Shown in pieces: positions 16,284-34,302 of a stretch of DNA of 34,302 nucleotides. The stretch is from Actinotalea ferrariae (GTDB taxonomy: Bacteria; Actinomycetota; Actinomycetes; Actinomycetales; Cellulomonadaceae), in the NCBI RefSeq assembly GCF_019733465.1, contig NZ_JACVQL010000022.1:1-34302 (forward strand), in the 5' to 3' direction. The notes beneath the pieces were generated by a model. That model saw nothing but the letters and a program-made list of their open reading frames with translations, made no database searches and was not told the DNA's origin. The first letter of the stretch is position 1. Each line of letters starts with the position of its first letter. Made by a program: the position numbers and the translations under genes.

Positions 16284-16304
16284 CCGGCTGATCGCCCAGC
16301 AGCG

Positions 16305-17915: not shown

Positions 17916-17956
17916 CGACCGACCCGATGACGACCGACCCGATGACGACCGACCCG
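17912..17956 (+). repeat. 15-bp tandem triplication containing the GH42 start codon
   Basis: ATGACGACCGACCCG is repeated exactly three times (17912, 17927, 17942), encoding MTTDP three times. Each copy offers an in-frame ATG, and only the first overlaps the GH39 stop. Confidence 0.95.
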
Positions 17957-19981
17957 ACGACGCTGCCGACCACCGCCCGCATCCCGTACGGCGGCGACTA
18001 CAACCCCGAGCAGTGGCCCGACCCGGTGTGGGACGAGGACCACCGCGCCTTCGACCTCGCGCGCATCGACACCCTCACCGTCGGCGTCTTCGTGTGGTCG
18101 CTGACCCAGCCGGCCGAGGAGGTCTACGACCTCACCGTCCTCGAGCGCATCCTCGACCGCGCGCAGGCCGAGGGGCGCCAGGTGTGCCTCGCGACCGGCA
18201 CGGGCGCCGTTCCCCCGTGGCTGGCGCACCGCTACCCCGAGGTGTGCCGCACCGACTTCGAGGGCCGGCGCCACGTCTACGGGCAGCGTCACAACGCGTG
18301 CCCCAGCTCGCCGGCGTACCGGCGGCTCGCCGCCGCGCTCGCGGGCCGGGTCGCGGAGCGCTTCGCGGACCACCCCGCCGTCATCGCCTGGCACGTCAAC
18401 AACGAGTACGGGGGCGCGTGCTACTGCGACCTGTGCGCCGCCGAGTTCCGGATCTGGCTGCGCGAGCGGTACGGGACGCTCGACCGGCTGAACGACGCCT
18501 GGAACGCCGTCTTCTGGTCGCACCGGTTCACGGACTGGGCCGAGGTCGTGCCGCCGAACGCGCTGTCGGAGCACTGGCGCGGGCCGGACCACACGGCGTT
18601 CCAGGGCATCACGCTCGACTACCTGCGCTTCACCTCGGACAACCTGCTCCGCACCTTCCGCGAGGAGAAGGACGCGATCCGGCAGCACTCCGACCTGCCC
18701 GTGACGACGAACTTCATGGGCATGTACCGGCCGATCGACTACCACCGGTGGGCCGAGCACCTGGACCTCGCGTCCTGGGACAACTACCCGCCCGACGACC
18801 GGTCGGCGTCGCGCATGGCGCTGACCCACGACCTCATGCGCGGGCTCAAGGACGGTCAGCCGTTCTGGCTCATGGAGCAGACGCCGACCGTCACGGCGAG
18901 CCGCGACGTCAACCCGGTCAAGCGGCCGGGCGTCATGCGGCTGTGGTCCTGGCAGGCCGTCGCCCACGGCGCCGACGCCGTCCTGTTCTTCCAGATGCGC
19001 CAGTCGCGCGGTGCGTGCGAGAAGTACCACGGCGCGGTGCTGGACCACGCGGGCCGGACGGACACGCGGTCGTTCCGGGAGGTCGCGGCGCTGGGTGCGG
19101 AGCTCGAGGCGCTCGGCGACCGGACGCTCGGGGCCCGGACCCCGGCCCGCGTGGCCGTGCTCTTCGACTGGGACTCGTGGTGGGCGCTCGAGATCTCGGA
19201 CGGCCCGAACCGGAACCTCCGGTACCAGCGCACGGTGATCGACCACCACCGCGCGCTGTGGGAGGCGGGTGCGCAGGTCGACGTCGTGCCGGTGACCGCG
19301 GACCTGACGCGGTACGACGTGGTCGTCGCGCCGCTCCTGCACATGGTCAAGGGCGACCTGGCCGAGCGGCTCGAGGCGGTCGCCGAGCGGGGCGGCACGG
19401 TCGTGACCACCGTGCTGTCCGGTCGTGTGGACGAGGACGACAACGCCTTCCTGGCCGACGTGCCGGGGCCGCTCGCGCGCCTGCTCGGGATCCGGGTCGA
19501 CGAGACCGACGCGCAGGCGCCCGAGGTGCGGAACCCGGTCCGGCTCGTCGTCGGCGACGACGAGCTCGTGACCGGCTCGCACACGGTGTTCGACCTCGTG
19601 CTGCCCCAGGGCGCCGAGGTCGTCGGGACGTACGGCGCCGACTTCTACGCGGGCACGGCCGCGGTGACGCGGAACCGGTTCGGCCGAGGTGAGGCGTGGT
19701 ACCTCGGCACGTGCCTCGAGCAGGACGGGCTCGACCTGGTGCTCCGGCACGTGCTCGCGCGGCACGGGCTGGTCGGGCCGTACGCCGACGCGCCCGGCGT
19801 CGAGCACGCGGTGCGCGAGGTCGACGGCCGGCGCTACGAGTTCCTGCTGCACCACGGCGACGTGCGCGTCGAGGTAGACGCGCACGCCGACGGCACGGAC
19901 CTGCTCAGCGGTCGGCGCGTCGTGCGCGGCGAGGTGATCGCGCTCGAGCCCACGGACGTCGTCGTGCTCGAGGTGGGCTGA
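17912..19981 (+). CDS. GH42 beta-galactosidase
   Basis: Cytoplasmic glycosidase, 689 aa, acting on beta-galactosides or possibly alpha-L-arabinopyranosides. The barrel domain starts at about residue 22 (RIPYGGDYNPEQWP). The acid/base Glu165 lies in WHVNNEYGG and the nucleophile Glu322 in FWLMEQTP. The zinc-site cysteines typical of many GH42 enzymes are present (PEVC and GACYCDLC). The trimerisation domain (from about 400) and a small C-terminal beta domain follow. In Bacillus, YesZ of this family works with YesL in rhamnogalacturonan breakdown, and a YesL-like gene follows here. Translation is coupled to GH39 by ATGA overlap. The N-terminal MTTDP triplet is not part of the fold; the start could be any of three ATGs. 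Confidence 0.95.
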   Translation: MTTDPMTTDPMTTDPTTLPTTARIPYGGDYNPEQWPDPVWDEDHRAFDLARIDTLTVGVFVWSLTQPAEEVYDLTVLERILDRAQAEGRQVCLATGTGAVPPWLAHRYPEVCRTDFEGRRHVYGQRHNACPSSPAYRRLAAALAGRVAERFADHPAVIAWHVNNEYGGACYCDLCAAEFRIWLRERYGTLDRLNDAWNAVFWSHRFTDWAEVVPPNALSEHWRGPDHTAFQGITLDYLRFTSDNLLRTFREEKDAIRQHSDLPVTTNFMGMYRPIDYHRWAEHLDLASWDNYPPDDRSASRMALTHDLMRGLKDGQPFWLMEQTPTVTASRDVNPVKRPGVMRLWSWQAVAHGADAVLFFQMRQSRGACEKYHGAVLDHAGRTDTRSFREVAALGAELEALGDRTLGARTPARVAVLFDWDSWWALEISDGPNRNLRYQRTVIDHHRALWEAGAQVDVVPVTADLTRYDVVVAPLLHMVKGDLAERLEAVAERGGTVVTTVLSGRVDEDDNAFLADVPGPLARLLGIRVDETDAQAPEVRNPVRLVVGDDELVTGSHTVFDLVLPQGAEVVGTYGADFYAGTAAVTRNRFGRGEAWYLGTCLEQDGLDLVLRHVLARHGLVGPYADAPGVEHAVREVDGRRYEFLLHHGDVRVEVDAHADGTDLLSGRRVVRGEVIALEPTDVVVLEVG

Positions 19982-20019
19982 GCCGTGGCGGGGCTCGAGG
20001 TGGCTGGGGCCGACGTGGC

Positions 20020-20025
20020 TAGGGT
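20020..20025 (+). promoter_or_regulatory. Putative -10 of a leaderless DUF624 transcript
   Basis: TAGGGT ends 7 nt before the GTG at 20033, the usual layout of leaderless actinobacterial genes. It suggests the YesL-like gene has its own transcript in addition to the operon. Confidence 0.45.
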
Positions 20026-20032
20026 CGAGCGC

Positions 20033-20713
20033 GTGAGTCGCACCGCGGGGGACGTCCGGCAGGGGCCGCTCGGGCGCGCCGCGACGGTCGTGTACTGGTT
20101 CGTCGTCGTCGAGGCCCTGCTGGTGCTCACCGCAGGCCCCGGCCTCGTCGCGTCGCTCTTCCTCGAGCCCGGCCTCGGCAGCCTGCCGCTGTACGTGCTG
20201 TGCGCCGCGCCGCTCGGGCCGGCGGTCGCGGCGGCGTTCTTCGCCTGGCGCGTGTTCCTGCGGGAGCGGGACCCGTCGCCCGCGCCGCACTTCTGGCGCG
20301 GGTACCGCCTCAACGCGCTCGACGCGCTGCGGGTGTGGGTGCCCTCCGTGGTGCTGCTGGCCGTCCTCGCGACGAACGCCGTGTCCGACGTGGCCGGCGG
20401 CCTCCCGCCCACCGTCTTCCTCGGGCTCGCCGCGGTGCTGATGCTCTGGACGGTCCGGATGCTCGGGGTGACGTCGGCGTTCGCCTTCCGCTGGCGCGAC
20501 GCCGCGCGGATCTCGGCCTTCACGCTGACCGCCCGGCCGCTGCGGACGCTCGGGCTGCTGTCGCTGCTGGTCCTGACCGGGGGCGTCGTCGCCGTGGCGT
20601 CCGACGCGGTCGCCGTCCTGCTCGCGTCGGTGCTGACCTTCCTCGTCGTGCGCAACGAGGCGCCCGTGCTCGACCTCGTCCGCGAGCGCTTCGTGGAGGA
20701 CGAGGCGGGCTGA
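20033..20713 (+). CDS. DUF624 family membrane protein (YesL-like)
   Basis: Integral membrane protein, 226 aa, with about five hydrophobic segments and the conserved DUF624 features (LGRAATVVYWFVVVEAL, then APLGPAVAAAFFAWR). The family has no established biochemical role, but its genes recur in LplB/YtcP sugar-transport operons, and yesL is in the Bacillus rhamnogalacturonan cluster. It follows the GH42 stop by 51 bp from this start. The GTG at 20033 was chosen because a TAGGGT hexamer is correctly spaced for leaderless transcription; a GTG at 19985 would add 16 residues. Its stop lies 9 bp from the end of the converging WYL regulator gene. Confidence 0.85.
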   Translation: MSRTAGDVRQGPLGRAATVVYWFVVVEALLVLTAGPGLVASLFLEPGLGSLPLYVLCAAPLGPAVAAAFFAWRVFLRERDPSPAPHFWRGYRLNALDALRVWVPSVVLLAVLATNAVSDVAGGLPPTVFLGLAAVLMLWTVRMLGVTSAFAFRWRDAARISAFTLTARPLRTLGLLSLLVLTGGVVAVASDAVAVLLASVLTFLVVRNEAPVLDLVRERFVEDEAG

Positions 20714-20722
20714 GCGGACGCG

Positions 20723-21673
20723 TCAGCGCACGGCGGCGGCGTAGCGCTCGCCGAGGACGCGCAGCGCCTCGACCAGCTCGGGCGGGCCGTCGACGCGGAA
20801 CGGCAGACCGAGCATCCCGATGTAGGCAGCGATCGTCTCGACGCTGTCGGCGCCGGTCACGAGCACGCACGACGCGTCGTCGACCGGCTCGACGACGCCC
20901 ACGGCCGGGTTGATCCGCGCGAGCACCTCCGCCGCGGGAGCGGGCACCAGGATCCGCGCGTGCACCGCCCAGCCGCTCGACGCGACCTCGCGGACCACGA
21001 GGTCGGCGTACTCGGGCTCGGCCAGGGGCGTGGGCGTGAACCGGCGCCCCGTCCGCATGCGCAGCCGCATCCAGTCGACGCGCAGGGCGAGCCACCTGCC
21101 GGTCGCCGGGTCGCGGGCCACGAGGTACCAGCGGCGCTGCCACGAGACGAGCCGGTAGGGCTCGACCAGCATGGGCTCCTCCCGGTGGTCGAGGCGCAGC
21201 AGCTCGTGCCGGTGCACGGCCTCGGCGACCTCGGCGAGGAGGGCCGGTTCGACCTCCGGGTCGGGTGCGTTGGTTCCGGTGTTCTCCGGTGCGCGTCCGG
21301 TGCTCGCGGTCAGCGCCTCGACGCGGCCGCGCAGGCGGGCCGGCAGGACCTTCTGCAGCTTCGTGCTCGCGCGCTGGCTCGCGTCCTCGATGCCGGCCAC
21401 GCCGGTCGCGGCGCGCAGGCCGACGGCGACCGCGACCGCCTCGTCGTCGTCGAGCAGGAGAGGCGGCAAGCGCCCGCCGGCGCCGAGCCGGTAGGCGCCC
21501 GTCCGCCCGCGCGTCGCGTCGACGGGGTAGCCGAGCGAGCGCAGGCGGTCGATGTCGGTCCGGATCGTCCGGCCCGTGACCCCCAGCCGTTCCGCGAGCT
21601 CGGGGCCTGTCCACGTCGGTCGCGACTGCAGCAGGCCGAGCAGGGCGAGGAGGCGGGCCGAGGTCTCGAGCAT
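20723..21673 (-). CDS. WYL-domain transcriptional regulator (YafY/DeoR-type HTH)
   Basis: DNA-binding regulator, 316 aa. The N-terminal HTH_11 domain spans about 1-55 (ARLLALLGLLQ then LAERLGVTGRTIRTDIDRL). The WYL domain contains EPYRLVSWQRRWYLVARD and is followed by a WCX-type C-terminal extension. WYL domains are proposed to bind small ligands or nucleic acids. It is divergent from the epoxide hydrolase gene, and an inverted repeat between the two is a likely operator, so it probably controls that neighbour and itself. The ATG at 21673 begins MLETSARLLAL, the usual family start; an upstream ATG at 21691 would overlap the operator. No Shine-Dalgarno is evident. Confidence 0.93.
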   Translation of the reverse strand: MLETSARLLALLGLLQSRPTWTGPELAERLGVTGRTIRTDIDRLRSLGYPVDATRGRTGAYRLGAGGRLPPLLLDDDEAVAVAVGLRAATGVAGIEDASQRASTKLQKVLPARLRGRVEALTASTGRAPENTGTNAPDPEVEPALLAEVAEAVHRHELLRLDHREEPMLVEPYRLVSWQRRWYLVARDPATGRWLALRVDWMRLRMRTGRRFTPTPLAEPEYADLVVREVASSGWAVHARILVPAPAAEVLARINPAVGVVEPVDDASCVLVTGADSVETIAAYIGMLGLPFRVDGPPELVEALRVLGERYAAAVR

Positions 21674-21690
21674 GGAAAGAGCATCGCACA

Positions 21691-21711
21691 ACAGGAACCA
21701 AGTCTTCCTGT
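21691..21711. promoter_or_regulatory. Inverted repeat between WYL regulator and epoxide hydrolase
   Basis: ACAGGAA (21691-21697) and TTCCTGT (21705-21711) are perfect 7-bp arms around a 7-nt spacer. They lie immediately upstream of a TACCGT -10-like hexamer (21720-21725) for the hydrolase. The spacing and place fit the operator of the WYL regulator. Confidence 0.6.
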
Positions 21712-21732
21712 ATCGCTCCTACCGTGGTGGTC

Positions 21733-22944
21733 ATGGAGATCACCACGACCGGGAGGACGAGCACGATGGACAGCACGAGCACCAGCCGCACCGGCACCAC
21801 AGACAGCATGGGCACCACGGGCGAGGAGGTCGTCCCGTTCACGATCGCGGTCGCGCAGGCAGACCTCGACGACCTGCGCTCGCGGCTCGACCGCACGCGG
21901 CTGCCCGCGCCGGTCCCGGGCGAGGACGACTGGCTGTACGGCACGCCGAACTCGTGGCTGCGCGACGCCGTCGAGGCGTGGAAGGCCTTCGACTGGCGCG
22001 ACGTCGAACGGCGGCTCGACGCGTTCCCGAACTTCCGCACGGAGGTCGACGGGCAGCCCCTCCACCTCATCCACGTGCGCTCGCCGCACCCGCAGGCGAC
22101 GCCGCTCCTGCTGGTCCACTCGTACCCGGGGAGCGTCCTCGACGTCGTCGACATGATCGGGCCGCTCGGGGACCCGGTCGCGCACGGCGGACGCGCCGAG
22201 GACGCGTTCCACGTGGTCGTCCCGTCGGCGCCGGGCTTCGGCTGGAGCACCCCGGTGGTCGATCGCGGGTGGACGACGGAGCGCCTCGCCCGGACGTTCG
22301 ACGTGCTCATGCGCCGGCTGGGCTACGACACCTACGGGGTGCACGGCAGCGACCTCGGCGCGCTCGTCGGTCGTGAGCTCGGGCTCCTCGAGCCCGACGG
22401 GTTCCTGGGCTCGCACGTGCTCCAGGCGTTCTCGTTCCCCTCGGGTGACCCGGCCGAGCTCGCCGACCTCACGCCGGAGGAGTACGCGGGCCTCGCCCAC
22501 ATGCAGTGGTTCCAGTCCGTGGGCGGCTACAACGCGATGAACGCGTCGCGGCCGCAGACCGTCGCCGTGGGCCTCTCGGACTCGCCCGTCGGCCAGCTCG
22601 CGTGGAACGAGCTCTTCGTCAGCTTCGGCAACGGCACTAGCCTCGTCCCGCTCGAGTCGATCCTCGCCGAGGTGACGCTCGAGTGGCTCACGAACACGTC
22701 CGCGTCCGTGGGCCGGTACCACTTCGAGGACGCCCGGCTAGAGCGCGAGCCGGCGGTCAACCACGGTCGGATGGGCGTCGCGGTGTTCGCCGACGACTTC
22801 CAGACGATCCGCGCGCTCGCCGAGCGGGACAACGACCGGATCGAGCACTGGAGCCGGTTCGAGCGCGGCGGCCACTACGCGTCGCTCGAGGTGCCGGACG
22901 TCCTCGTCGACGACATCCGGGCGTTCTTCCGTCCCGTCCGCTGA
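21733..22944 (+). CDS. Epoxide hydrolase family alpha/beta hydrolase (EHN domain)
   Basis: Predicted epoxide hydrolase of the microsomal-EH-like branch, 403 aa. After a Thr/Ser/Gly-rich N-terminal tail of about 30 residues comes the EHN domain (VPFTIAVAQADLDDLRSRL). The oxyanion motif HSYPGS is at 129-134, the nucleophile Asp207 sits in HGSDLG (the family usually has GGDWG), and the base His381 is in ERGGHYASLE. It adds water to an epoxide through an ester intermediate on Asp207. TACCGT at 21720-21725 followed 7 nt later by the ATG suggests a leaderless transcript; a GTG at 21724 is the alternative start. It is divergent from the WYL regulator. Physiological substrate unknown; no obvious link to the polysaccharide genes. 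Confidence 0.9.
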   Translation: MEITTTGRTSTMDSTSTSRTGTTDSMGTTGEEVVPFTIAVAQADLDDLRSRLDRTRLPAPVPGEDDWLYGTPNSWLRDAVEAWKAFDWRDVERRLDAFPNFRTEVDGQPLHLIHVRSPHPQATPLLLVHSYPGSVLDVVDMIGPLGDPVAHGGRAEDAFHVVVPSAPGFGWSTPVVDRGWTTERLARTFDVLMRRLGYDTYGVHGSDLGALVGRELGLLEPDGFLGSHVLQAFSFPSGDPAELADLTPEEYAGLAHMQWFQSVGGYNAMNASRPQTVAVGLSDSPVGQLAWNELFVSFGNGTSLVPLESILAEVTLEWLTNTSASVGRYHFEDARLEREPAVNHGRMGVAVFADDFQTIRALAERDNDRIEHWSRFERGGHYASLEVPDVLVDDIRAFFRPVR

Positions 22945-22998
22945 CGACACCGAGGCGCGTCCGAGGGGGCGTGCGCCGAGGGGGCGTGCGTCGAGGGG

Positions 22999-23030
22999 CA
23001 GGCCGGACCCGTGCGAGCGGGTCCGGCCTG
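22999..23030 (+). terminator. Terminator after the epoxide hydrolase
   Basis: Perfect 12-bp stem CAGGCCGGACCC / GGGTCCGGCCTG with an 8-nt loop, 54 bp after the stop. Upstream of it (about 22954-22998) is a short degenerate repeat of GCGTGCGYCGAGGGG type. Confidence 0.8.
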
Positions 23031-23063
23031 TCGCGTGTCGGAGGGCGGGTCTAGCGTCGCGGC

Positions 23064-23504
23064 ATGACGACTCCTCTGAGCTTCCAGGTGACGGTGGACT
23101 GCAGCGAGCCGCACGTGCTCGCCGACTGGTGGGCCGAGACGCTCGGCTGGCAGGTCGAGCCCTCCGACCCGGACTTCATCCGGTCGATGATCAGCCAGGG
23201 CCACGCGACGGACGAGGACACGACGACGCACCGCGGCGTCCTCGTCTGGAAGGAGGGTGCGGCGATCCGCCACCCCGACCCGGACGCGGGGCCGGGCGGG
23301 CGCATCCTCTTCCAGCTCGTGCCCGAGGGGAAGACGGTCAAGAACCGCGTGCACCTCGACGTGAGGCCCGGCCGCGAGAACGCGAAGGACGTCGTCGCGC
23401 GCCTCGTGGAGCGCGGCGCGACCGTCGACCACGAGGGCAGGCAGGGGCCGTCGACGTGGACCACGCTGCTCGACCCGTGGGGGAACGAGTTCTGCGTCGG
23501 CTGA
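23064..23504 (+). CDS. VOC / glyoxalase-like domain protein
   Basis: Small soluble protein, 146 aa, with the vicinal-oxygen-chelate fold of the Glyoxalase_6 type: SFQVTVDCSEPHVLADWWAETLGW at the start (two overlapping segments of the first beta-alpha unit) and LLDPWGNEFCVG at the end, the second metal-site strand. Members include lyases, dioxygenases and resistance proteins, so the reaction cannot be assigned. A TAGCGT hexamer (23052-23057) 6 nt before the ATG indicates a leaderless transcript. It converges with the GH67 gene with only 16 bp between stops. Confidence 0.87.
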   Translation: MTTPLSFQVTVDCSEPHVLADWWAETLGWQVEPSDPDFIRSMISQGHATDEDTTTHRGVLVWKEGAAIRHPDPDAGPGGRILFQLVPEGKTVKNRVHLDVRPGRENAKDVVARLVERGATVDHEGRQGPSTWTTLLDPWGNEFCVG

Positions 23505-23520
23505 GGCGCCGCGCGGGCCG

Positions 23521-25548
23521 TCAGTGGATGCGACGGCCGTGCGCGTCCGGGACGCCGGACTTGCGCAGCACGTACGTGTTCAGCTGGTCCCGCCACTCGC
23601 GTGCGCCGCGCTGCTGCTCCGTGAGGCGCTGGGCCACGCGGTCGAAGAAAGGGTCGGGCACGCGTCCTTGCATGGTCGCCCAGCGCTCGGCCATCGCGTC
23701 GACGGCGTCGACGCCGCGGAAGTGCGTGTCGTAGACGTGCTGGGCGACGCTCACGCCGCGGTGCAGCACGTGCGTCCACGGGACGTGGTGGAAGAAGAGC
23801 AGCAGCTCGTCGGGGCACGTCTCGAGCCGCTCGTACACGTCCCGCCACGGCTCCGGGTACTGGCCGGTGTAGCCCGTCCCGGTCGCACGAGTGCGGTCGA
23901 CCCCGATGCCGTCGCGGTCCGCGAAGTGGTAGGTGCCCCAGGGCGTGTACTCGTACCCGTCGACGTCGGGACCGTAGTGGTGGCCGGGGCGCACCATGAA
24001 GCCGACGCCGAGCGGGGCGGTGTAGTCCTCGTAGGTGTGCCACGACTCGTCCATGACGTCGTGCAGCGCGTCGCGCACGTCGTCGTCGGCGCCGAACGTC
24101 AGGTCGACCCACTCGTCCAGCACGTCGGTCGCGGGCAGGGTCGGGTCCCACGCGAGCCGCCCGAACGCGTAGAGGTTCGCCTGCGCGAGCGGGTGGCCGG
24201 TCCAGAACTCGTCCGTGCCGACGTTGGACACGGCCACCAGGCCGGCGGCGCGGCCGCCCGGGCCGTGACCGCCCGCGACGTCGGCGACGGTCGTGCCCGC
24301 GCCCCACGGCCGGAAGCCCAGCAGCTCTGACCACTGCGGCCCGAGCCAGCACACGTGCTTCTGCTGGCCGGTGTACTCCTGCGTGACCTGGAGCTCGACC
24401 GCGAGCCGGGTGCGCGGCATCGCCGCGACGACCGGCGAGACGGGCTCGCGCGTCTGGAAGTCCATCGGGCCGTACTTGACCTGGAGCACGACGTTGTCGT
24501 CGAACCGTCCGTCGAGCGGCGCGAAGTGGTCGTACGCCGCGCGGGCGCGGTCCGTCGAGCGGTCGCGCCAGTCCTGCGTGTGGTTGTAGACGAACGCGCG
24601 CCAGAACACGGTCCCGCCGTGCGGTGCGACCGCCCGGGCCAGGAGGTTCGCGCCGTCGGCGTGGTCGCGGCCGTACGCGAACGGGCCGGGCTGCCCCTCG
24701 GAGTCCGCCTTGACCACGAAGCCGCCGAAGTCCGGGATGCGCGCCCACACGGCGGCGGCGGCGCGCGTCCACCAGGCGCGGACGTCGTCGTCGAGCGGGT
24801 CCGAGGTCGCGAGGCCGCCGACCGTCATGGGCGCCGCGAAGGAGACGGACAGGTGCGTGCGGATGCCGTGCCGGCGGAACGCGGCCGCGAGCGTGGCGAC
24901 GTCGTCGAGGCCGTCCGTGAGCAGGTGCGCCTCGACGGCGTGCACGTTGACGTTGTTGACCGCGACCCGGTTGATCGCCATCGAGCCGAGCAGCCGCGCG
25001 TACTCCTCGACGCGCCCGAGGTCGTCGCGCAGCCTCCCGTCGAGCCAGAAGATCGAGTCGCCCGAGTACCCGCGCTCCACCTGGCCCATGACCGGGTGGA
25101 CCGTGAGGTTGTCCCAGTGGTCGAGCATGCGGATCGGCTCGGCGGGGGCGTGCACGCCGAGGAACCCCGTGCGCCCGACGGCCGCCGCGAGGTCGCGCGC
25201 CGCGGTGTGCCGCACGACGTGGTGCAGCCCGTAGAGCAGGGCGGGGCCGTCCGCGGCGCGCACGACCACGACGTCCTCGTCCAGGGCGACGTCGAACGAC
25301 TCGGGCGCGAGCTGGCCGGGCGCCTGCGCTGCCGCGACCAGCACGAGGTCGGCTCCCTCCGCCGCGTGCAGCAGGGCACCGCCGAAGCGTGCCGTCGCGC
25401 GCTCGACCTCGTCCCGCACGGTCTGCACCACGTCGCCGTCGCCGATGACGGCGACGCGGAGGCCGCCGATCCCGGCGAAGGCGCGGTCCGGGAGCCATGC
25501 GGGGTGCACGTCGGCGACCGCTGCGCCGCTCGTCGTCGAGCCGGTCAT
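23521..25548 (-). CDS. GH67 alpha-glucuronidase
   Basis: Cytoplasmic enzyme, 675 aa, that removes (4-O-methyl)glucuronic acid from the non-reducing end of aldouronates derived from glucuronoxylan. Family residues are visible: acid Glu284 in VKADSEGQPGPFAYG, Asp363 in QVKYGPMDFQTREPVSP, and Glu391 in ELQVTQEYTGQQ; their spacing equals that of the Cellvibrio enzyme (292/365/393). A small N-terminal domain, the central barrel and an all-helical C-terminal domain fit the usual length. The ATG at 25548 has AGGAGG just upstream. A promoter (TTGCCA, 17 bp, TACGCT) precedes it, and its -35 lies inside a perfect LacI-type palindrome shared with the divergent regulator gene. It completes the GH39/GH3/CE7 set for acetylated glucuronoxylan fragments. 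Confidence 0.97.
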   Translation of the reverse strand: MTGSTTSGAAVADVHPAWLPDRAFAGIGGLRVAVIGDGDVVQTVRDEVERATARFGGALLHAAEGADLVLVAAAQAPGQLAPESFDVALDEDVVVVRAADGPALLYGLHHVVRHTAARDLAAAVGRTGFLGVHAPAEPIRMLDHWDNLTVHPVMGQVERGYSGDSIFWLDGRLRDDLGRVEEYARLLGSMAINRVAVNNVNVHAVEAHLLTDGLDDVATLAAAFRRHGIRTHLSVSFAAPMTVGGLATSDPLDDDVRAWWTRAAAAVWARIPDFGGFVVKADSEGQPGPFAYGRDHADGANLLARAVAPHGGTVFWRAFVYNHTQDWRDRSTDRARAAYDHFAPLDGRFDDNVVLQVKYGPMDFQTREPVSPVVAAMPRTRLAVELQVTQEYTGQQKHVCWLGPQWSELLGFRPWGAGTTVADVAGGHGPGGRAAGLVAVSNVGTDEFWTGHPLAQANLYAFGRLAWDPTLPATDVLDEWVDLTFGADDDVRDALHDVMDESWHTYEDYTAPLGVGFMVRPGHHYGPDVDGYEYTPWGTYHFADRDGIGVDRTRATGTGYTGQYPEPWRDVYERLETCPDELLLFFHHVPWTHVLHRGVSVAQHVYDTHFRGVDAVDAMAERWATMQGRVPDPFFDRVAQRLTEQQRGAREWRDQLNTYVLRKSGVPDAHGRRIH

Positions 25549-25581
25549 GCTGCCTCCTGGGGCGAGGGTCCGGGCTCGACG

Positions 25582-25610
25582 AGCGTAGGTCGGGCCTCGA
25601 CGTGTGGCAA
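25582..25610 (-). promoter_or_regulatory. Promoter of the GH67 gene
   Basis: On the minus strand, -35 TTGCCA (25610-25605) and -10 TACGCT (25587-25582) are 17 bp apart. The -35 lies within the palindromic operator at 25606-25619. Confidence 0.6.
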
Positions 25611-25619
25611 ACGTTTGCC
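25606..25619. promoter_or_regulatory. Perfect 14-bp LacI-type operator GGCAAACGTTTGCC
   Basis: Perfect palindrome with the central CG and AAACGTTT core typical of LacI-family operators. It lies between the divergent GH67 and LacI genes, over the -35 of GH67 and next to the possible starts of the regulator, so it would repress GH67 and probably the regulator itself. Confidence 0.8.
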
Positions 25620-25621
25620 GC

Positions 25622-26719
25622 ATGGTTGCCATCGGGTGCCGCGGGCACGAGGATGGCCGCCGACGCGTCGGACGACGTCGGCGGTCCTCGCGACCGGCCC
25701 AGGCTGGAGGAGACATCAGCGCGAGCCCTCGACCCGCGACGCTCCGTGACGTCGCGGCGCTCAGCGGCGTCGCCGTCTCGACGGCGTCGCGCGCGCTGAC
25801 GCGGCCCGGCCGGGTCAGCGGTGAGACGGAGGCCCGGGTCCGGGCGGCGGCCGAGCAGCTCGGCTACGCGCCGAGCGGGCCCGCGCGTGCCCTGCTCTCG
25901 GGGCGGACGGGCGTCGTCGCCCTCGTCGTCCCCGACGTGACCAACCCGTTCTTCTTCTCGGCGGTGCGCGGGACGCAGTCGCGGCTCCGCCAGGGCCGGT
26001 TCGCGCACCTCCTCGTCGACACCGAGGAGTCGCCCGCGGCCGAGGAGCGAGCGCTGCGCGACCTGCGCGGGACGGTCGACGGCGCCGTGCTGGCCGGCGC
26101 CCGGCTCGACGACGAGCGCCTGGCGCACTGGGCGCGCGAGCTGCCGATCGTGACGATCAACCGCTCGCAGCCGACCGACCACGTCGTCGTCGACACCCCG
26201 GGCGGCGCCGTGCAGGCGCTGCAGCACCTCGTCTCGCTCGGCCACCGCCGCATCGGCTACGCCGGAGGGCCGCCGACGTCGTGGTCGGACGGTCGCCGTC
26301 GCGCCGCGCTCGCGGAGGCCGCCGGGCGGCTCGACGTCGACCTCGTCGACCTGGGCTCGCACGTGCCGCGGCGTGAGGGCGGCGCGCTCGTGGCCGACGC
26401 CGTCGTGACCGCGGGGGTGAGCGGCGTCGTCGTCTTCAACGACCTGCTCGCGTTCGGCGTGCTGGCGCGGCTCGCCGAGCGGGGGGTCGTGGTGCCGGAC
26501 GAGGTCAGCGTCGTGGGGTGCGACGACGTCTTCGGCGCCGACCTCGTGCGGCCGGCGCTCACGACCGTCGCCGTGCCGAGCGAGCGGGCCGCGTACCTCG
26601 CGACCGACCTCCTGCTCAACCGCCTCGAGGGCACGCGCACCACCGACGCCGCCCCGCCGCCACCCCTGCCGACCCACCTCGTCGTCCGCGGCTCCACGGC
26701 CCCGGCCCCCCGCCCCTGA
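25622..26719 (+). CDS. LacI-family transcriptional regulator (second)
   Basis: Repressor of the LacI/GalR type. The helix-turn-helix is PATLRDVAALSGVAVSTASRALTRPGRVS, and the effector domain ends with VVGCDDVFGADLVRPALTTVAVPS and HLVVRGSTAP. It is divergent from GH67 across a perfect operator. The start is uncertain. In frame before the HTH only a GTG (25604) and an ATG (25622) exist; both lie at the operator, have no Shine-Dalgarno, and would add an Arg-rich leader. The natural family start would be at about 25715, where GGAGGAG (25706-25712) precedes ATC AGC GCG rather than ATG. I report the ATG and flag the ATC possibility. Protein length is 365 aa from 25622 or 334 aa from 25715. Regulator identity is firm. 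Confidence 0.92.
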   Translation: MVAIGCRGHEDGRRRVGRRRRSSRPAQAGGDISASPRPATLRDVAALSGVAVSTASRALTRPGRVSGETEARVRAAAEQLGYAPSGPARALLSGRTGVVALVVPDVTNPFFFSAVRGTQSRLRQGRFAHLLVDTEESPAAEERALRDLRGTVDGAVLAGARLDDERLAHWARELPIVTINRSQPTDHVVVDTPGGAVQALQHLVSLGHRRIGYAGGPPTSWSDGRRRAALAEAAGRLDVDLVDLGSHVPRREGGALVADAVVTAGVSGVVVFNDLLAFGVLARLAERGVVVPDEVSVVGCDDVFGADLVRPALTTVAVPSERAAYLATDLLLNRLEGTRTTDAAPPPPLPTHLVVRGSTAPAPRP

Positions 26720-27234: not shown

Positions 27235-27248
27235 GGCAAGCGCTTTCC
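27235..27248. promoter_or_regulatory. LacI-type operator upstream of the CE12-PL11 gene
   Basis: GGCAAGCGCTTTCC is a 14-bp dyad with one mismatch. It matches GGCAAACGTTTGCC of the GH67/LacI region at 11 of 14 positions. It lies about 20 bp upstream of a predicted -35. Confidence 0.55.
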
Positions 27249-27296: not shown

Positions 27297-27326
27297 TGGC
27301 CACCAGTCGGACCACCCTGCGTGCTT

Positions 27327-27338
27327 GAATCGATTCAT
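27327..27338. promoter_or_regulatory. Perfect palindrome TGAATCGATTCA after the CE12-PL11 promoter
   Basis: A 12-bp perfect palindrome with central CG, of the LacI-family TGAA-N4-TTCA form, about 24 nt downstream of the predicted transcription start. It is of a different sequence class from the GGCAA-type dyads, so a second repressor may act here. Confidence 0.6.
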
Positions 27339-27441
27339 ACGACGGCGGCGTCGTGCCATCGGCTCGCTCGGGTGGGACGGCGCGGGCGGTCCGTGCGTCG
27401 GGTCGGCCGGTTCTCAGCGTCGAGACAGAAGGTGTGGTGCC

Positions 27442-30400
27442 ATGACCTCCGCCCCTCCCGGTCCCATCGATCACGGAGCGCGCGTGCACCCAGGTGCCAA
27501 CAGCGCCACCGCCCGCGGGGCCACCGCTCGCTGGGGGGCCGCGCGGCGCGGTGTGGCCGTGGTGACGGCGCTCGGGCTCGCCGCTGTGGGCGTCCCCACG
27601 GGCGCAGCCACAGCCGCCGACGAGCCGCTCGTGCTCTCGTTCGACCTCGGGACGGCGACGAGCCCGGTCGCGGACGGCTGGACCGGGGTCGCGGACACCA
27701 CGCGGTACACCGCGGAGCTCGGCCACGGGATCATGCCGGCCGAGGGCGTCACCCCGATCTCGCGCCACCGGACGAGCCAGGCCGCCGACGCCGTCGCGAA
27801 CGACTTCGTGCTCGGCACCGCCTGGTCGTTCGTGGTCGACGTGCCCGACGGCGCGTACGACGTGCGCGTCCTCTCGGGGGACCAGCTCACGGGCACCAGC
27901 ACCACCCGGACGCGCATCGCCCTCGAGGGCGTCGCCGCCGGCACGCTGCAGTCGCGCCAGGCCGTCACCGAGCAGACGTGGCGCACGACCGTGAGCGACG
28001 GTCAGCTCACCGTCGACGTCACGGGAGAGGGCGCCGGTGGTTACGTCAACGGCATCGTCGTGACCTCCGCCCCGACGGACCCGACCGACCCGACCGACCC
28101 CACGGACCCGACCGACCCGACCGACCCCGGCTCCACCATCGCCGCGCCCGGCAACGTCCGGATGGCGCACGTGACCGACGGCTCCGTGACGCTGCGCTGG
28201 GACGAGGTGACGGGAGCCACCGGCTACGTCGTCTCACGCGCCGACGCGCCCGGCGGCCCGTGGACCGTCGTCGCGGAGACGCCCGAGCGTGTCGTGCACA
28301 CCACCGACGACGTCGACACGACCGCCGTCCACCACTACCGCGTCCAGGCGCGCGACGCGGCGGGCCTCTCCGTCCCGTCCGCGACGGCGGTCTCGAGCCT
28401 CACCACGCCCGCGACCCTGCCCGACGGCGGCGTCCTCACCCTCGACCTCGGCAGCGGCGAGACCGCGCCCGGCGCCGTCCGGCTCGACGCGACGAGCGCC
28501 TACACGGCCGAGAGCCGCCTGGGCTTCGTCGACGTCGCGGCCGTGACCGCCGTCGACCGCGGCACGCCCGACGCCCTGCGCTCCGACTTCGTCACGATGG
28601 GCGACACCGAGCTCGTCGTGGACCTGCCGAACGGCGACTACACCGTCGACCTCGTCGCCGGCGACCCCTCCGGCCCGACGGACCTCGCGCTCACGGCCGA
28701 GCACATGGTCAAGGTCCAGCCGACCACCCGCCCCGCCGGCGAGCACCTGGAGATGGCGTTCGGGATCGCGGTCGTCGACGGCCAGCTCAACATCGAGGTC
28801 AGCGGCAGCGCGCCGAACCTCAACGGCCTCGTGATCACCCAGCAGTCGCCGCGCGACGCGGGCGCCCTGCCCACGCTGTGGGTCACGGGCGACTCGACGG
28901 TCCAGACCTACACCGCGGACTACGCGCCGCAGGCCGGCTGGGGCCAGATGATCGACCGCTTCCTCACGGACGACGTCGTCGTCGAGAACCGGGCGATCGG
29001 TGGCCGCAGCTCGAAGAACTTCATCAGTCAGGGGCGCCTCGACGAGGTGCTGCTCGGCATCCGCCCGGGCGACTACCTCGTCGCCCAGTTCGGCCACAAC
29101 GACAACTCCTACGGCGTCGACGACCGGTGGGCCGCCCCGGCCGACTACGCGAACTACCTGCGCACCTTCATCGACGGCGCCCGCCAGCGCAGCGCGACGC
29201 CGATCGTCGTCACCCCGGTCTCGCGGCGCTCGTACGCCGCCGACGGCACGGCGAACGTCTCGTTCCCCGAGTACGTCGAGGCCGCGCGGGCGATCGCCGA
29301 GGAGACGGGCACCGCGCTCGTCGACCTCTCCGCGAGCAGCCGCGCGTACCTCACCGAGATCGGCCCCGAGGCCGCCATGTCGGTGTTCCTGCACGTGCCC
29401 GCGGGCGTCTACCCGGGCCGCCCGAACGGCACGGCGGACGACACGCACTTCCAGGAGTACGGCGCCATCCAGATGGCGCGGCTCGTGGCGGCCGACGTCG
29501 CCGCGCTCGACCTGCCGCTCGCGGACGAGGTCGTCGAGGTCGAGCCGCCGGCCGAGGTGCCGGCGCAGCCCGTCGACGTCGTCGCAGGCAACGTCTCCAA
29601 CGCGGGCGTGCAGCTCACGTGGACCGCGGTCGAGGGTGCGGACATCTACGAGGTCTTCCGCACGGCCGCCGGCGAGGACGCGTGGACGCTCGTGACGACG
29701 TCGACGGTGCCGCAGGCCACGGTGACCGGCCTGACCGAGGGCAGCTCGTACGACCTGCGCGTCGTCGCGGTCAACGGCCGCGGCGACTCCGAGCCCTCGG
29801 CGTCGGTGCGCGTCACGACCAAGGCGCCGCTGCTGCGCCTCGACCTCCAGCTCCCGGGCAACGAGGTCATGCCGGGCTACACCGCCGTCGACACCACGAC
29901 GCTCTACACCGCCGAGCGCGGCTACGGCTGGGCGTCGGTCGACGGGCTCGGCGGCCGCGACCGCGGCACGGGCTTCGACCCCGTGCCGAACGCGCTCCAG
30001 CGCGACTTCGTCCTCCCGGCGAAGCACGAGCTGCGCGTCGACGTCGCGAACGGCGCCTACGCGCTCAAGGTCTACTACGGCGACCCGCTCGGCTCCGGCC
30101 GGCTCGCGCTGCAGGCCGAGGGCAAGGACCACGGGTCCTCCAACGCGGGTCGCGGCACGATCGCCGAGAAGATGATCCAGCCGGTCCTCGTCACCGACGG
30201 CCAGCTGAACATCACGGCCGACGGCTGGTGGAACGGTCTCGAGATCACCCCGCTGCTGCTCGCGCCGAGCGCGCTGCGGCTCGACGACCTCGCCATCACC
30301 GGCGCCGACGTCGCGGTCTCGCTCGCCTGGGCGGGGTCGGAGGACGCGACGGCCTACCGGGTCTACCGGCAGGACGCGGCCGCGGCCGCGCCCGAGGCGC

Positions 30401-33258
30401 TCGGCGACGTGACCGAGCCGGCCTTCGTCGACACCACGGCCGACGTCGGCCTCGACTACACCTACACGGTCGTCGCGCTCGACCCGACCGGCACCGAGTC
30501 GGTCGCGTCGAACCCGCTCGAGGTCACGACGGTCGACCCGGACGTCGCGACGGCACCCGTGCCGACGGGTCTCGCGCTCGGGGCGGTGAACAAGAACGAC
30601 GTGACCCTCACGTGGGACGCGTCGGAGGGTGCGCTGTTCTACCAGGTGTTCCGCGCCGACCCGCAGCCCGACGGCACGCCCGGCGAGCTCGCGCTGATCG
30701 GCCGCGCCGACAGCCCGACGTACACGGACCCCACGGTGCTCACCACGGTCGAGTACGTCTACGCGGTCGCAGCCGTCAACGCGGGCGGGGCGTCGGAGGC
30801 GTCGTCGACCGTCACGTCGCCGGCCGTCACGACGCTCGTGCGCCAGGCCGAGCGCCTCGACCGGGCGCCGGTCGCCGTCGCGACGGACGACGGCGTGCAC
30901 GTCGCGTGGCGCATGCTCGGCCTCGACCCCGAGTCGATCGCCTTCCACGTGCACCGCGACGGCGAGCGGATCACCGACGCGCCGGTCACCGGCAGCACCA
31001 ACCTGCTCGACCCGGACGGCACGACGTCGTCGACGTACCGGATCAGCGCGGTGGTCGACGGCATCGAGCGCTGGGTGACCGACGACGTCGTCGTGTGGGA
31101 CTCGCAGACGCTCGACATCCCGCTCGACAAGCCGGCCGACGGCGTCACCAAGGACGGCCAGCCGTACTCCTACCGCGCCAACGACACGTCGGTCGGCGAC
31201 CTCGACGGGGACGGCCAGTACGAGGTCGTCCTCAAGTGGGACCCGACGAACTCGCAGGACAACTCGCGCGCCGGCTACACCGGGAACGTCCTGGTGGACG
31301 CCTACGAGCTGGACGGCACGCGCCTGTGGCGCATCGACCTGGGCCGCAACATCCGGGCCGGCGCCCACTACACCCAGCTCCAGGTCTTCGACCTCGACGG
31401 CGACGGCCGGGCCGAGGTGACCATGAAGACGGCCGACGGCACGACGGACGGCGTCGGTGCGGTCATCGGCGACGCGCGCGCCGACTTCCGGAACTCGAGC
31501 GGCTACGTGCTCACGGGCCCGGAGTACCTCACGGTCTTCGCCGGACCCACGGGCGCGGCGGTCGACACCGTCGAGTACCTGCCGCCGCGGGGCGACGTCG
31601 GCTCGTGGGGCGACACCTACGGCAACCGGGTGGACCGCTTCCTCGCCGGGGTCGCGTACCTCGACGGCGAGCGGCCGAGCGTCGTCTTCAGCCGCGGCTA
31701 CTACACCCGCGCAGTCATCGCGGCCTTCGACTTCGACGGCTCGCAGCTCACCGAGCGCTGGACGTTCGACTCGGACCAGGCGGGCGACCAGTACCGCGGC
31801 CAGGGGAACCACCAGTTCTCCGTCGCGGACGTCGACGGCGACCAGAAGGACGAGATCGTCTTCGGGTCGATGACGATCGACGACGACGGCACCGCGCTCC
31901 ACACGACCGGCCTCGGCCACGGTGACGCGCTGCACGTCTCCGACCTCGACCCCTCGCGGCCGGGTCTCGAGGTGTTCGCGGCGCACGAGGACATGGGCGC
32001 CTCGGGCAACCTCGGCGCGACGTTCCGCGACGCCGCGACGGGGCAGGTCCTCTGGGGCGTGCCGGCGCAGCGTGACACGGGCCGGGCCGCCGCGGCGGAC
32101 ATCGACCCGGGCTCGCCGGGCGCCGAGGGCTGGGTCATCGGCGGCGACGCCGCGTGGAACTCACGCGTCGGCGAGGTCCGGTCGGCGTCGGGCGAGGTGC
32201 TCTCCACCACCATCCCGGCGGCGAACTTCGTCACCTGGTGGGACGGCGACCTGCTCCGCGAGATCACCGACCACGACTGGACGGAGGAGACGCGCACCGG
32301 TGTCCCCACGATCTCGAAGTGGGACCCGGCGACGGGGACCGAGGTCGAGATCTACCGGGCCACGGGGACGCTCACGAGCAACGACACCAAGGGCAACCCG
32401 GCGCTGCAGGCGGACCTCGTCGGCGACTGGCGCGAGGAGCTGCTCACGCGCACCGAGGACTCGACGGCGCTGCGGCTGCACACGACCGTCGACCTGACCG
32501 ACCACCGGCTGCGCACGCTGCAGTCCGACCCGGTCTACCGCCTCGGCGTCGCGGGGCAGAACACGGCGTACAACCAGCCGCCGCACACGTCGTACTTCCT
32601 CGGCGAGGGCATGACGACGCCGCCCGCGCCGAGCATCGCCTACACGGGCGCCGACCCGGGCCCCGGCCCGCGCGTCGACGGTCCGGCGACGGCGGCGCCC
32701 GGTCGGGGCGTGCTCTCGACCGACGACTGGGACCGCGACGGCGTCTTCGTCCTCACCATGGACATGTGGTGGGGGCAGAACGCGCAGACGGTGACGTTCC
32801 TCGAGAACGGCGTCCCGATCGGGACGCAGGACCTCGTCGACCGCACGCCGGCCGCGCAGCACGCGACGCTGCGCATCCCCGGCCGCGCGAACGGCACCTA
32901 CGTCTACACGGCCGAGCTGACCAACCAGCACGGCACGACGACGACGCAGCCGCTCACGGTCCGCGTCACCAACGCGGGCCCGGGCACGCCGGTGCTGTCC
33001 CACGACAACTGGGACCGCGACGGCGACTACACGCTCACCACGAACCTGTGGTGGGGGACCAACGCGACCGAGTACCGCCTCTACGAGGACGGCGTCCTGG
33101 TCGACACCCAGAGCCTCGTCGCGGAGAGCCCGAACGCGCAGCAGGCGAGCACCACGCTCACCGACCGCGCGCGCGGCACGCACGTCTACCGCGCCGAGCT
33201 GGTCAACGCGTTCGGCACCTCGAGCAGCCGGGAGGTCACCGTGCGCGTGGACCGGTAG
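27442..33258 (+). CDS. Secreted multidomain CE12 rhamnogalacturonan acetylesterase - PL11 rhamnogalacturonan lyase
   Basis: Exported 1938-aa protein for rhamnogalacturonan-I. Order: signal peptide 1-58; beta-sandwich module A (63-208); linker of PTD repeats (209-230); Fn3 (233-328); module B (331-470); CE12 acetylesterase (478-695) with Ser485 in VTGDSTVQ, Asn553 in GHND, and Asp666/His669 in DDTHF; Fn3 (708-793); module C (797-940); two Fn3 (941-1132); PL11 lyase (about 1134-1728) with its calcium-binding DLDGDG turns (DLDGDGQYEVVLKW, DLDGDGRAEVTMKT, DVDGDQKDEIVFGS); two C-terminal modules (1751-1938) with NWDRDG--TLT-NLWWG. Modules A-C are alike. CE12 removes acetyl groups; PL11 cuts the backbone by beta-elimination. 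The ATG at 27442 has AGAAGG upstream. No anchor is seen, so it is probably released. Confidence 0.93.
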   Translation: MTSAPPGPIDHGARVHPGANSATARGATARWGAARRGVAVVTALGLAAVGVPTGAATAADEPLVLSFDLGTATSPVADGWTGVADTTRYTAELGHGIMPAEGVTPISRHRTSQAADAVANDFVLGTAWSFVVDVPDGAYDVRVLSGDQLTGTSTTRTRIALEGVAAGTLQSRQAVTEQTWRTTVSDGQLTVDVTGEGAGGYVNGIVVTSAPTDPTDPTDPTDPTDPTDPGSTIAAPGNVRMAHVTDGSVTLRWDEVTGATGYVVSRADAPGGPWTVVAETPERVVHTTDDVDTTAVHHYRVQARDAAGLSVPSATAVSSLTTPATLPDGGVLTLDLGSGETAPGAVRLDATSAYTAESRLGFVDVAAVTAVDRGTPDALRSDFVTMGDTELVVDLPNGDYTVDLVAGDPSGPTDLALTAEHMVKVQPTTRPAGEHLEMAFGIAVVDGQLNIEVSGSAPNLNGLVITQQSPRDAGALPTLWVTGDSTVQTYTADYAPQAGWGQMIDRFLTDDVVVENRAIGGRSSKNFISQGRLDEVLLGIRPGDYLVAQFGHNDNSYGVDDRWAAPADYANYLRTFIDGARQRSATPIVVTPVSRRSYAADGTANVSFPEYVEAARAIAEETGTALVDLSASSRAYLTEIGPEAAMSVFLHVPAGVYPGRPNGTADDTHFQEYGAIQMARLVAADVAALDLPLADEVVEVEPPAEVPAQPVDVVAGNVSNAGVQLTWTAVEGADIYEVFRTAAGEDAWTLVTTSTVPQATVTGLTEGSSYDLRVVAVNGRGDSEPSASVRVTTKAPLLRLDLQLPGNEVMPGYTAVDTTTLYTAERGYGWASVDGLGGRDRGTGFDPVPNALQRDFVLPAKHELRVDVANGAYALKVYYGDPLGSGRLALQAEGKDHGSSNAGRGTIAEKMIQPVLVTDGQLNITADGWWNGLEITPLLLAPSALRLDDLAITGADVAVSLAWAGSEDATAYRVYRQDAAAAAPEALGDVTEPAFVDTTADVGLDYTYTVVALDPTGTESVASNPLEVTTVDPDVATAPVPTGLALGAVNKNDVTLTWDASEGALFYQVFRADPQPDGTPGELALIGRADSPTYTDPTVLTTVEYVYAVAAVNAGGASEASSTVTSPAVTTLVRQAERLDRAPVAVATDDGVHVAWRMLGLDPESIAFHVHRDGERITDAPVTGSTNLLDPDGTTSSTYRISAVVDGIERWVTDDVVVWDSQTLDIPLDKPADGVTKDGQPYSYRANDTSVGDLDGDGQYEVVLKWDPTNSQDNSRAGYTGNVLVDAYELDGTRLWRIDLGRNIRAGAHYTQLQVFDLDGDGRAEVTMKTADGTTDGVGAVIGDARADFRNSSGYVLTGPEYLTVFAGPTGAAVDTVEYLPPRGDVGSWGDTYGNRVDRFLAGVAYLDGERPSVVFSRGYYTRAVIAAFDFDGSQLTERWTFDSDQAGDQYRGQGNHQFSVADVDGDQKDEIVFGSMTIDDDGTALHTTGLGHGDALHVSDLDPSRPGLEVFAAHEDMGASGNLGATFRDAATGQVLWGVPAQRDTGRAAAADIDPGSPGAEGWVIGGDAAWNSRVGEVRSASGEVLSTTIPAANFVTWWDGDLLREITDHDWTEETRTGVPTISKWDPATGTEVEIYRATGTLTSNDTKGNPALQADLVGDWREELLTRTEDSTALRLHTTVDLTDHRLRTLQSDPVYRLGVAGQNTAYNQPPHTSYFLGEGMTTPPAPSIAYTGADPGPGPRVDGPATAAPGRGVLSTDDWDRDGVFVLTMDMWWGQNAQTVTFLENGVPIGTQDLVDRTPAAQHATLRIPGRANGTYVYTAELTNQHGTTTTQPLTVRVTNAGPGTPVLSHDNWDRDGDYTLTTNLWWGTNATEYRLYEDGVLVDTQSLVAESPNAQQASTTLTDRARGTHVYRAELVNAFGTSSSREVTVRVDR

Positions 33259-33276: not shown

Positions 33277-34302
33277 ATGGACGACGACGCCCTGCCCCGC
33301 CGCACCCCGGAGGAGCAGGGCGTCGCGTCGTCCGGCCTCCTCGCCCTCGTCGACGCGCTCGAGGCGGTCGACGAGGTGCACAGCCTCATGGTCGTCACGC
33401 GCGGCGCCGTCGTGGCCGAGGGGTGGTGGGACCCGTACACGCCCGATCGGCCGCACCAGCTGTTCTCGCTCACGAAGACCTTCACCGCGATCGCCGTGGG
33501 GCTCGCCGAGGCGGAGGGGCTGCTCTCGCCGGACGACCTGGTGCTCGACCACGTGAGCCTCGAGGGTGCGGCGCCGCACCCGAACCTCGAGCGGATGCGG
33601 CTCGAGCACCTGCTGACCATGACGACCGGGCACCACGAGGACACCTCGGACCGGGTGTTCGAGCAGGAGGACTGGGTCCAGGCGTTCCTGCGCCTGCCGG
33701 TCGAGCACGAGCCCGGCACGCACTTCGCGTACAACACGGCGGCGACGCACGTCCTGGCCGCCGTCGTGCAGGGGGTGACGGGCGAGCGCGTCATCGACTA
33801 CCTGGGTCCGCGCCTCCTCGAGCCCCTCGGCATCACCGGCGCGACGACGGAGCAGAGCCCGACGGGCGTGGACACCGGCGGCTTCGGCATGTCCGCCCGC
33901 ACCGAGGACGTCGCGCGCCTCGGCGTGCTCCTGCTCGACGACGGCCGGTGGCGCGGCCGGCGCATCCTGCCCGAGGGCTGGGTCGCGGCGGCGAGCCGCG
34001 CCCGCACGCCGTCGACCGGCGAGAACCCGGACTGGCAGCAGGGCTACGGCTACCAGATGTGGCGCGGGCGCCACGGCTCCTTCCGGGGCGACGGCGCGTT
34101 CGGCCAGTTCTGCGTCGTGCTGCCCGAGCAGGAGACGGTGGTCGCGATCACGGCGGGGACCCAGGACATGCAGGGTGTCCTCGACGCCTTGTGGGCCCAC
34201 CTGCTGCCCGCGGTCGCGGCCGCACCGCTCCCCGCCGACGACGACGCGCACCGCCGGCTCGCCGAGCGGCTCGCGGCGCTGCGGCACGAGCCGCCGCTCG
34301 GC
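33277..34302 (+). CDS. Serine hydrolase, beta-lactamase (class C)/esterase family, 3' end beyond window
   Basis: Penicillin-binding-protein-fold serine hydrolase (PF00144 type). The 342 codons visible contain no stop, so the gene runs past the window. The nucleophile Ser64 and Lys67 are in FSLTKTF, the YNT segment with Tyr152 follows, and GSFRGDGAFGQF near 265-276 is at the place of the third (KTG/HxG) motif. There is no signal peptide, so it is probably a cytoplasmic esterase or amidase and not a cell-wall enzyme. It begins 18 bp after the CE12-PL11 stop; CACGCT at 33265-33270 could be a leaderless -10. Genes of this family recur in polysaccharide clusters, perhaps as deacylases, but the reaction here is unknown. 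Confidence 0.88.
   Translation, partial: MDDDALPRRTPEEQGVASSGLLALVDALEAVDEVHSLMVVTRGAVVAEGWWDPYTPDRPHQLFSLTKTFTAIAVGLAEAEGLLSPDDLVLDHVSLEGAAPHPNLERMRLEHLLTMTTGHHEDTSDRVFEQEDWVQAFLRLPVEHEPGTHFAYNTAATHVLAAVVQGVTGERVIDYLGPRLLEPLGITGATTEQSPTGVDTGGFGMSARTEDVARLGVLLLDDGRWRGRRILPEGWVAAASRARTPSTGENPDWQQGYGYQMWRGRHGSFRGDGAFGQFCVVLPEQETVVAITAGTQDMQGVLDALWAHLLPAVAAAPLPADDDAHRRLAERLAALRHEPPLG

Follow-up and report, generated by a model that had tools for sequence, protein, structure and literature searches.

The window, i.e. the whole stretch of DNA that was analysed (34,302 nucleotides of Actinotalea ferrariae, taken from a draft genome of 4.26 Mb in 426 contigs), carries at positions 27442-33258 of the plus strand a single intact open reading frame, which starts with ATG, encodes 1938 amino acids and has zero internal stops. 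GC content by codon position over 27325-33258 was 0.70/0.53/0.97. Positions 7529-25716 are occupied by genes of xylan and galactoside use, namely AXE1 (-), LacI (-), GH3, ABC permease, solute-binding protein, GH39 and GH42 (+), with GH67 (-) beside a second LacI gene further on. Directly downstream of the long frame lies a gene for a PF00144 beta-lactamase-family protein (33277-34302), which is cut by the window end. Module boundaries within the long protein were placed by hand from Pfam and PDB matches and were then used for the comparison of loci. The features are as follows (residue numbers in brackets):

27236..27247, strand not assigned: GCAAGCGCTTTC, second LacI-type near-palindrome upstream (pattern scan only)
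27326..27337, strand not assigned: TGAATCGATTCA, perfect palindrome and predicted rhamnose LacI-type operator, 104 bp before the ATG (pattern scans)
27427..27432, plus strand: plausible ribosome-binding site AGAAGG (by eye)
27442..33258, plus strand: predicted CE12-PL11 bifunctional protein, 1938 aa (ORF, Pfam, PDB sequence matches)
27442..27618, plus strand: probable Sec signal peptide (1-59; by eye on the N-terminus)
27625..28041, plus strand: GBD1, AGA-YXIM galactose-binding-like domain (62-200; best PF21254 stretch 67-195; hand-set boundaries)
28123..28395, plus strand: Fn3 domain 1 (228-318; PDB sequence matches; hand-set boundaries)
28423..28866, plus strand: GBD2 (328-475), directly adjoining the esterase, an arrangement also seen in YxiM (PDB sequence matches; hand-set boundaries)
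28867..29517, plus strand: CE12 SGNH/GDSL acetylesterase domain (476-692) with S485, N553, D666 and H669 (Pfam, alignments)
29539..29826, plus strand: spacer module 1, Fn3 (700-795; Pfam fn3 709-791)
29830..30246, plus strand: spacer module 2, GBD3 (797-935; locus comparison; beta-rich in the model)
30247..30546, plus strand: spacer module 3, Fn3-like (936-1035; locus comparison; beta-rich in the model)
30547..30831, plus strand: spacer module 4, Fn3-like (1036-1130; 3mpc and 5kf4 matches; locus comparison)
30841..31101, plus strand: PL11 N-terminal beta domain PF18370 (1134-1220; Pfam)
31102..32637, plus strand: PL11 catalytic propeller PF21348 (1221-1732; Pfam, PDB matches, alignment)
32674..32976, plus strand: C-terminal beta module 1 (1745-1845; hand-set; PF08329 has two stretches in the protein)
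32977..33255, plus strand: C-terminal beta module 2, ChitinaseA_N-like (1846-1938; PF08329, best stretch 1863-1936)

The Pfam scan recognised the galactose-binding-like domain PF21254 (GBD; E 7e-30) in three stretches of the protein and fn3 likewise in three, while the NCBIfam scan of the same protein (P0001) returned one match, to pectin acetylesterase PaeY, which with 52.8 of 1000 bits was below cut-off. Judging by eye from its N-terminus, the 1938-aa protein is probably secreted. The intact frame, together with the Pfam and PDB matches, bears out what had been proposed from the sequence alone (hereafter, the sequence-only reading), namely one 1938-residue protein with both enzyme domains; with CE12 and PL11 in one polypeptide it belongs to the CE12-PL11 fusion class of PMC10483417.

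In the esterase half, PF13472 (Lipase_GDSL_2) covered residues 483-633 with E 1.2e-14. Its placement in CE12 rests on similarity to Bacillus subtilis YxiM (2o14), which we count as a CE12 member, at 122 bits (124 bits with a shorter query), and, weakly, to the Aspergillus rhamnogalacturonan acetylesterase (1deo) at 36 bits (40 with a shorter query). The match to YxiM extended over 327 residues and comprised the pair of GBD2 and esterase. The signature residues GDST, GHND and DDTHF named in the sequence-only reading are all present in the protein. Furthermore, across 91 distinct fused proteins (the set after duplicate removal, window included) GDST, [AS]IGGRS and GHND were each found in 91/91, and so was D-x-T-H-F, as DDTHF in 85 and DNTHF in 6 of them. 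We take the GDS, conserved Gly region, GxND and DxxH blocks to be the catalytic blocks of CE12/SGNH enzymes.

The lyase half passed both curated Pfam cut-offs at full length, which assigns it to PL11: PF18370 at 1134-1219 (E 1e-31, 109.5 bits against a cut-off of 27.8, profile positions 1-86 of 86) and PF21348 RGL11_C at 1224-1730 (E 3.9e-239, 794.9 bits against 27, profile positions 2-490 of 490). It matched YesX (2zuy) with 805 bits over 1134-1737 and YesW (2z8r) with 744 bits, so that the full PL11 domain claimed earlier is indeed a complete lyase, at 1134-1732. R1548 and K1650 were invariant in 10/10 aligned members and align with an Arg and a Lys of YesW, presumably Arg452 and Lys535. According to the available text of PMC8787155, the Arg/Lys pair of PL11 holds the carboxyl group of the substrate. 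It should be added that the same genome has a second PL11 on contig C87 (L205, about 12391-15027 on the minus strand; also L194), the PF21348 match of which is split in two; this two-piece form with an intervening stretch also occurs in many genomes of the order.

Every one of the 91 distinct fused proteins possesses the same succession of modules, Fn3-GBD-Fn3-Fn3, in the stretch that separates CE12 from the PL11 beta domain, and the distance from CE12 end to propeller start was 522-564 residues (median 533). At least five Fn3/beta-sandwich spacers had been announced; four were found, and five are reached only if the N-terminal beta domain of PL11 itself is counted. One of the four is the galactose-binding-like PF21254 module, of a family that is present three times in the protein and went unnamed in the earlier description. 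The protein ends, in turn, were variable, with 0-2 Fn3 and 0-1 GBD before GBD2 and 0-2 C-terminal modules. An AlphaFold2 model of 894 residues, spanning GBD2 to the PL11 beta domain and thus ending before the propeller, had a mean pLDDT of 85.9 and a pTM of 0.65, a value that leaves the orientation of domains unfixed; in this model the stretch between esterase and lyase had almost all-beta secondary structure. Foldseek searches with the model returned YxiM as the first PDB match, followed mostly by Fn3-rich chains that are not closely related. That the spacer has these four modules and a nearly equal length in 91/91 proteins suggests that spacing may matter, though shared ancestry alone could also account for it.

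The profile search revealed PF21348 in 55/297 genomes of the order. Among 58 loci, fetched around PL11 matches that are full-length and in one piece (the window not counted, two-piece matches left out), CE12 and PL11 shared one open frame in 25, from 25 genomes; the window is the 26th, and at least 26/55 PL11-positive genomes of the order, window included, therefore carry the fusion. In a second genome collection, which partly overlaps the first, 77 of the best 80 CE12 loci (of at least 567 confirmed) have both domains in one frame, and the remaining three (L111, L126 and L137) have both halves next to each other, with a frame change or a stop between them. The genera among these best 80 loci include Cellulomonas, Isoptericola, Demequina, Arthrobacter, Microbacterium, Kribbella, Streptomyces, Kineococcus, Paenibacillus and others; among the long PL11 frames of Bacillota/Paenibacillaceae, the architecture was read in L167 and L168.

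The draft state of the genome, with its 426 contigs, could raise the suspicion that the fusion arose falsely, through a frameshift or an assembly join between two genes, one of the outcomes that the sequence-only reading had named as fatal to its proposal. Against this, the identical fusion and module order recur in 25 further genomes of the order, among which are several assembled as a single contig, as well as in the 77/80 loci of the overlapping second collection; on these grounds the artefact was ruled out, its probability being practically negligible. The fusion is thus both real and common.

Its distribution is nevertheless not universal. Within the window's own genus, any PL11 match was found in 5/19 genomes, and three other species (L184, L185 and L186) show the arrangement GBD-Fn3-Fn3-PL11-Ct-Ct with no CE12 in the full-length PL11 frame, although in L184 the contig ends within the frame and a CE12 half may be lost there. 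Of 396 genomes drawn across the phylum, 12 had a PL11 match, one of them below cut-off; the seven full-length PL11 frames outside the order in this draw measure 636-944 residues and are therefore too short for this fusion, and CE12 within the PL11 frame was found in none of these 7/7 loci, two of which (L189 and L190) have separate CE12-like frames nearby. The CE12-PL11 fusion is frequent in Actinomycetota and also present in Paenibacillus. As a separate observation, a fused CE12-PL11 gene lies close to a GBD-Fn3-Fn3-PL11 gene in one genome in the cases of L059/L070 (G044) and L127 (Cellulomonas sp. Leaf395).

Pairwise distances of the CE12 and PL11 domains of the 91 fused proteins correlated with r 0.81, the maximum of 500 permutations being 0.14. 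This shows joint inheritance and no more, because the relatedness of the organisms adds to the correlation. A FastTree phylogeny of 138 PL11 domains separated 31 unfused rows from the remainder, which comprised the 91 fused rows and 16 unfused ones; its root is the midpoint, so that both gain and loss of the fusion are compatible with it. Two of these 16, L111 and L126, carry the label PL11-only although a CE12 half adjoins them beyond a frame change or a stop; L137 (Kribbella) is labelled GBD-PL11 on the same grounds, and pieces were left unjoined throughout. Records of Sporosarcina and Planococcus grouped with actinobacterial rows and may be misnamed. In genus g22 (L044 and L063), CE12 and PL11 are encoded by two neighbouring genes, and in the PL11 tree these loci fall among fused relatives; this would fit a later split of a fused gene, although with a midpoint root the opposite direction is compatible too.

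When the regions upstream of fused genes were scanned for perfect palindromes, only 10/87 had one or more. The pattern TGAAnCGnTTCA with one mismatch was adopted after a first look at the fused-gene upstream regions and scored on the same data: it occurred in 61/88 of these regions, which are not independent because many come from close relatives, and in 27/924 flank windows of the same loci, 27/88 fused genes being without it. Exact copies were found in 14/88 upstream regions against 7/924 flank windows, whereas the reversed pattern and four shuffled palindromes gave 0/88 exact and 0-3/88 within one mismatch. A different palindrome, GCAAACGTTTGC, is situated at 25607-25618, around the starts of the GH67 and LacI genes.

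Sites at rhamnose genes were found afterwards, with the TGAAnCGnTTCA pattern already fixed. The genome itself contains five exact sites (reversed control, none): one before the fused gene, two flanked by a LacI gene on one side and rhaI-rhaD-rhaB on the other, a fourth in front of an operon that encodes a solute-binding protein, a 725-aa protein and a Gfo/Idh oxidoreductase, and a fifth within an unrelated reading frame. RhaI scored 625 bits against a cut-off of 531 and RhaD 1081 against 568; RhaB, cut by the contig end, reached 357 of 528 bits. The 725-aa protein (L202:4843-7020, minus strand, contig C2) has a weak GH65-like match (PDB E 0.0019; Pfam 15.9 bits, below the cut-off of 27).

Ten relatives were searched and seven followed up, namely all but G175, G240 and G271. 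In these seven, 14 regions were fetched from among the matches listed, chosen for an A or T beside the central CG. Seven of the regions hold rhaI and one more (L229) rhaD, while none of the rhamnose enzymes searched for was found in the other 6/14. All seven relatives have a site no more than about 500 bp ahead of rhaI, and in 5/7 the same fetched stretch holds a LacI gene 48-69% identical to the rhaI-adjacent LacI of the window's genome. Among the matches listed, G175 had 44 exact sites against 3 in the reversed control, which is more than a small regulon would account for; G271 had 5 against 4.

As described in the available text of PMC3870299, LacI-type RhaR in Actinomycetales controls genes for uptake and catabolism of rhamnose and rhamnose oligosaccharides, and its regulon includes alpha-rhamnosidases in several genomes; a PL11 or CE12 gene is not named for the regulon in that text. 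Since a regulator-like site is common to the fused gene and the rha genes of its own genome, we assign the former to the rhamnose regulon as a candidate member, probably repressed by a LacI-type rhamnose regulator at the predicted operator 27326-27337.

The gene neighbourhood would point elsewhere. With AXE1 (7529-8614), GH39, GH3, GH42 and the GH67 alpha-glucuronidase as neighbours, the CE12 half might mainly be an acetyl-xylan esterase and the protein a part of the adjoining xylan genes, its lyase acting on pectin that shields xylan; moreover, the available text of PMC10483417 lists CE12 for pectin, rhamnogalacturonan (RG) and xylan, along with other acetylated glycans. Yet the palindrome of the fused gene is common to rhamnose genes, whereas the GH67/LacI start region has its own, different one, and each of the 91 distinct fused proteins gathered pairs CE12 with PL11 (CE12-xylanase joins were outside the search). 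The xylan assignment was ranked low because the upstream palindromes differ, and we regard it as improbable; the palindrome shared with L-rhamnose catabolic genes points to rhamnogalacturonan I (RG-I) rather than to the nearby xylan genes.

Proteins with both enzymes in one chain have been reported before, and the following comparisons were made by description, from the available text of the sources. CAZy contained 50 CE12:PL11_1 proteins, none characterised to the knowledge of the authors of PMC10483417 (2023). Among them HUW50_16055 of Metabacillus sp. KUDC1714 (PMC10483417) likewise has CE12 at the N-terminus, PL11 at the C-terminus and a non-catalytic module between, but this is annotated as CBM35, in contrast to the Fn3-GBD(PF21254)-Fn3-Fn3 found here. 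Pamy_4308 of Paenibacillus amylolyticus 27C64 (PMC6339884, 2018), a PL11|CE12|CBM37 lyase/acetylesterase of 188.2 kDa with a signal peptide, also unites both enzymes and differs in its CBM37 call. The Ruminococcus proteins PL11-Doc-CBM35-CE12 and PL11-CE12-CBM13-CBM13-CBM37 (PMC4081043, 2014) have the two enzymes in reverse order, and in one case a dockerin; they probably represent a separate fusion. The B. subtilis proteins YxiM, which resembles the GBD-esterase pair, and YesW/YesX, which resemble the lyase half, are separate proteins, unlike the fused chain here, and PMC4711584, PMC12844168 and PMC12037645 list CE12 and PL11 as separate proteins in their available parts.

The impression of rarity voiced in the sequence-only reading did not hold, in view of the counts from both collections and three papers. 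The alternative it had allowed for, a fusion common and well described, comes close to what was found: common it is, while the description extends to sequence architecture only. The literature searched, which covered few subscription papers, yielded no biochemical study of a CE12-PL11 fusion; neither the constant spacer, which was outside the aim of that search, nor the link to a rhamnose operator was met there. The CE12-PL11 fusion is already in print and the gene is one of many of a known architecture; it is no discovery, because the fusion is common in related bacteria and was reported before.

Taken together, we consider it very likely that the gene encodes a secreted multimodular bifunctional RG-I pectinase, with a LacI-type rhamnose regulator as its probable control. 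What we infer in this reading is secretion, the two activities with their substrate and synergy, the attachment of the GBDs to carbohydrate and that of the regulator to its site. Within pectin, RG-I is the acetylated portion that is hard to use, and the CE12 family is known for removal of acetyl groups from it. After secretion, the three GBDs and the Fn3 modules would keep the enzyme attached or close to its substrate and determine how far apart the active sites lie; the CE12 domain, together with the YxiM-like GBD2 that adjoins it, would then take acetyl groups off RG-I, and the PL11 propeller would cut the exposed Rha-GalA backbone by beta-elimination. The products would be imported and, as the shared sites suggest, rhamnose catabolised under the same regulator, the gene being presumably induced when rhamnose or its oligomers are used. 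Deacetylation and cutting of RG-I, which had been put forward as the purpose of the protein, is thus a likely one from the domain content and the signature residues.

Whether tethering as such contributes to catalysis is a different matter. The two enzymes may share a chain only so as to be secreted and dosed together, the linkage bringing no kinetic gain. The g22 loci with separate adjacent CE12 and PL11 genes and the three congeners with a PL11 frame lacking the CE12 half (one frame reaching a contig end) speak for it and indicate that linkage is not indispensable; the four modules and nearly the same length kept by the spacer in 91/91 proteins speak against it, suggestively, as ancestry could explain this too. 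We see this explanation as a serious contender, with chances somewhat short of even. Returning to the bifunctional RG-I pectinase, a further and distinctly speculative step would be that the spacer fixes a working distance and couples both reactions on one RG-I chain, the whole being an old, vertically kept, rhamnose-controlled unit that spread through Actinomycetota and reached Paenibacillus; we put this forward tentatively, as rather unlikely in its entirety.

The palindrome shared with the rhamnose genes offers a cheap, testable link of the fused genes to rhamnose catabolism, and a one-chain esterase-lyase with a nearly constant spacer provides a ready test of enzyme tethering on RG-I.
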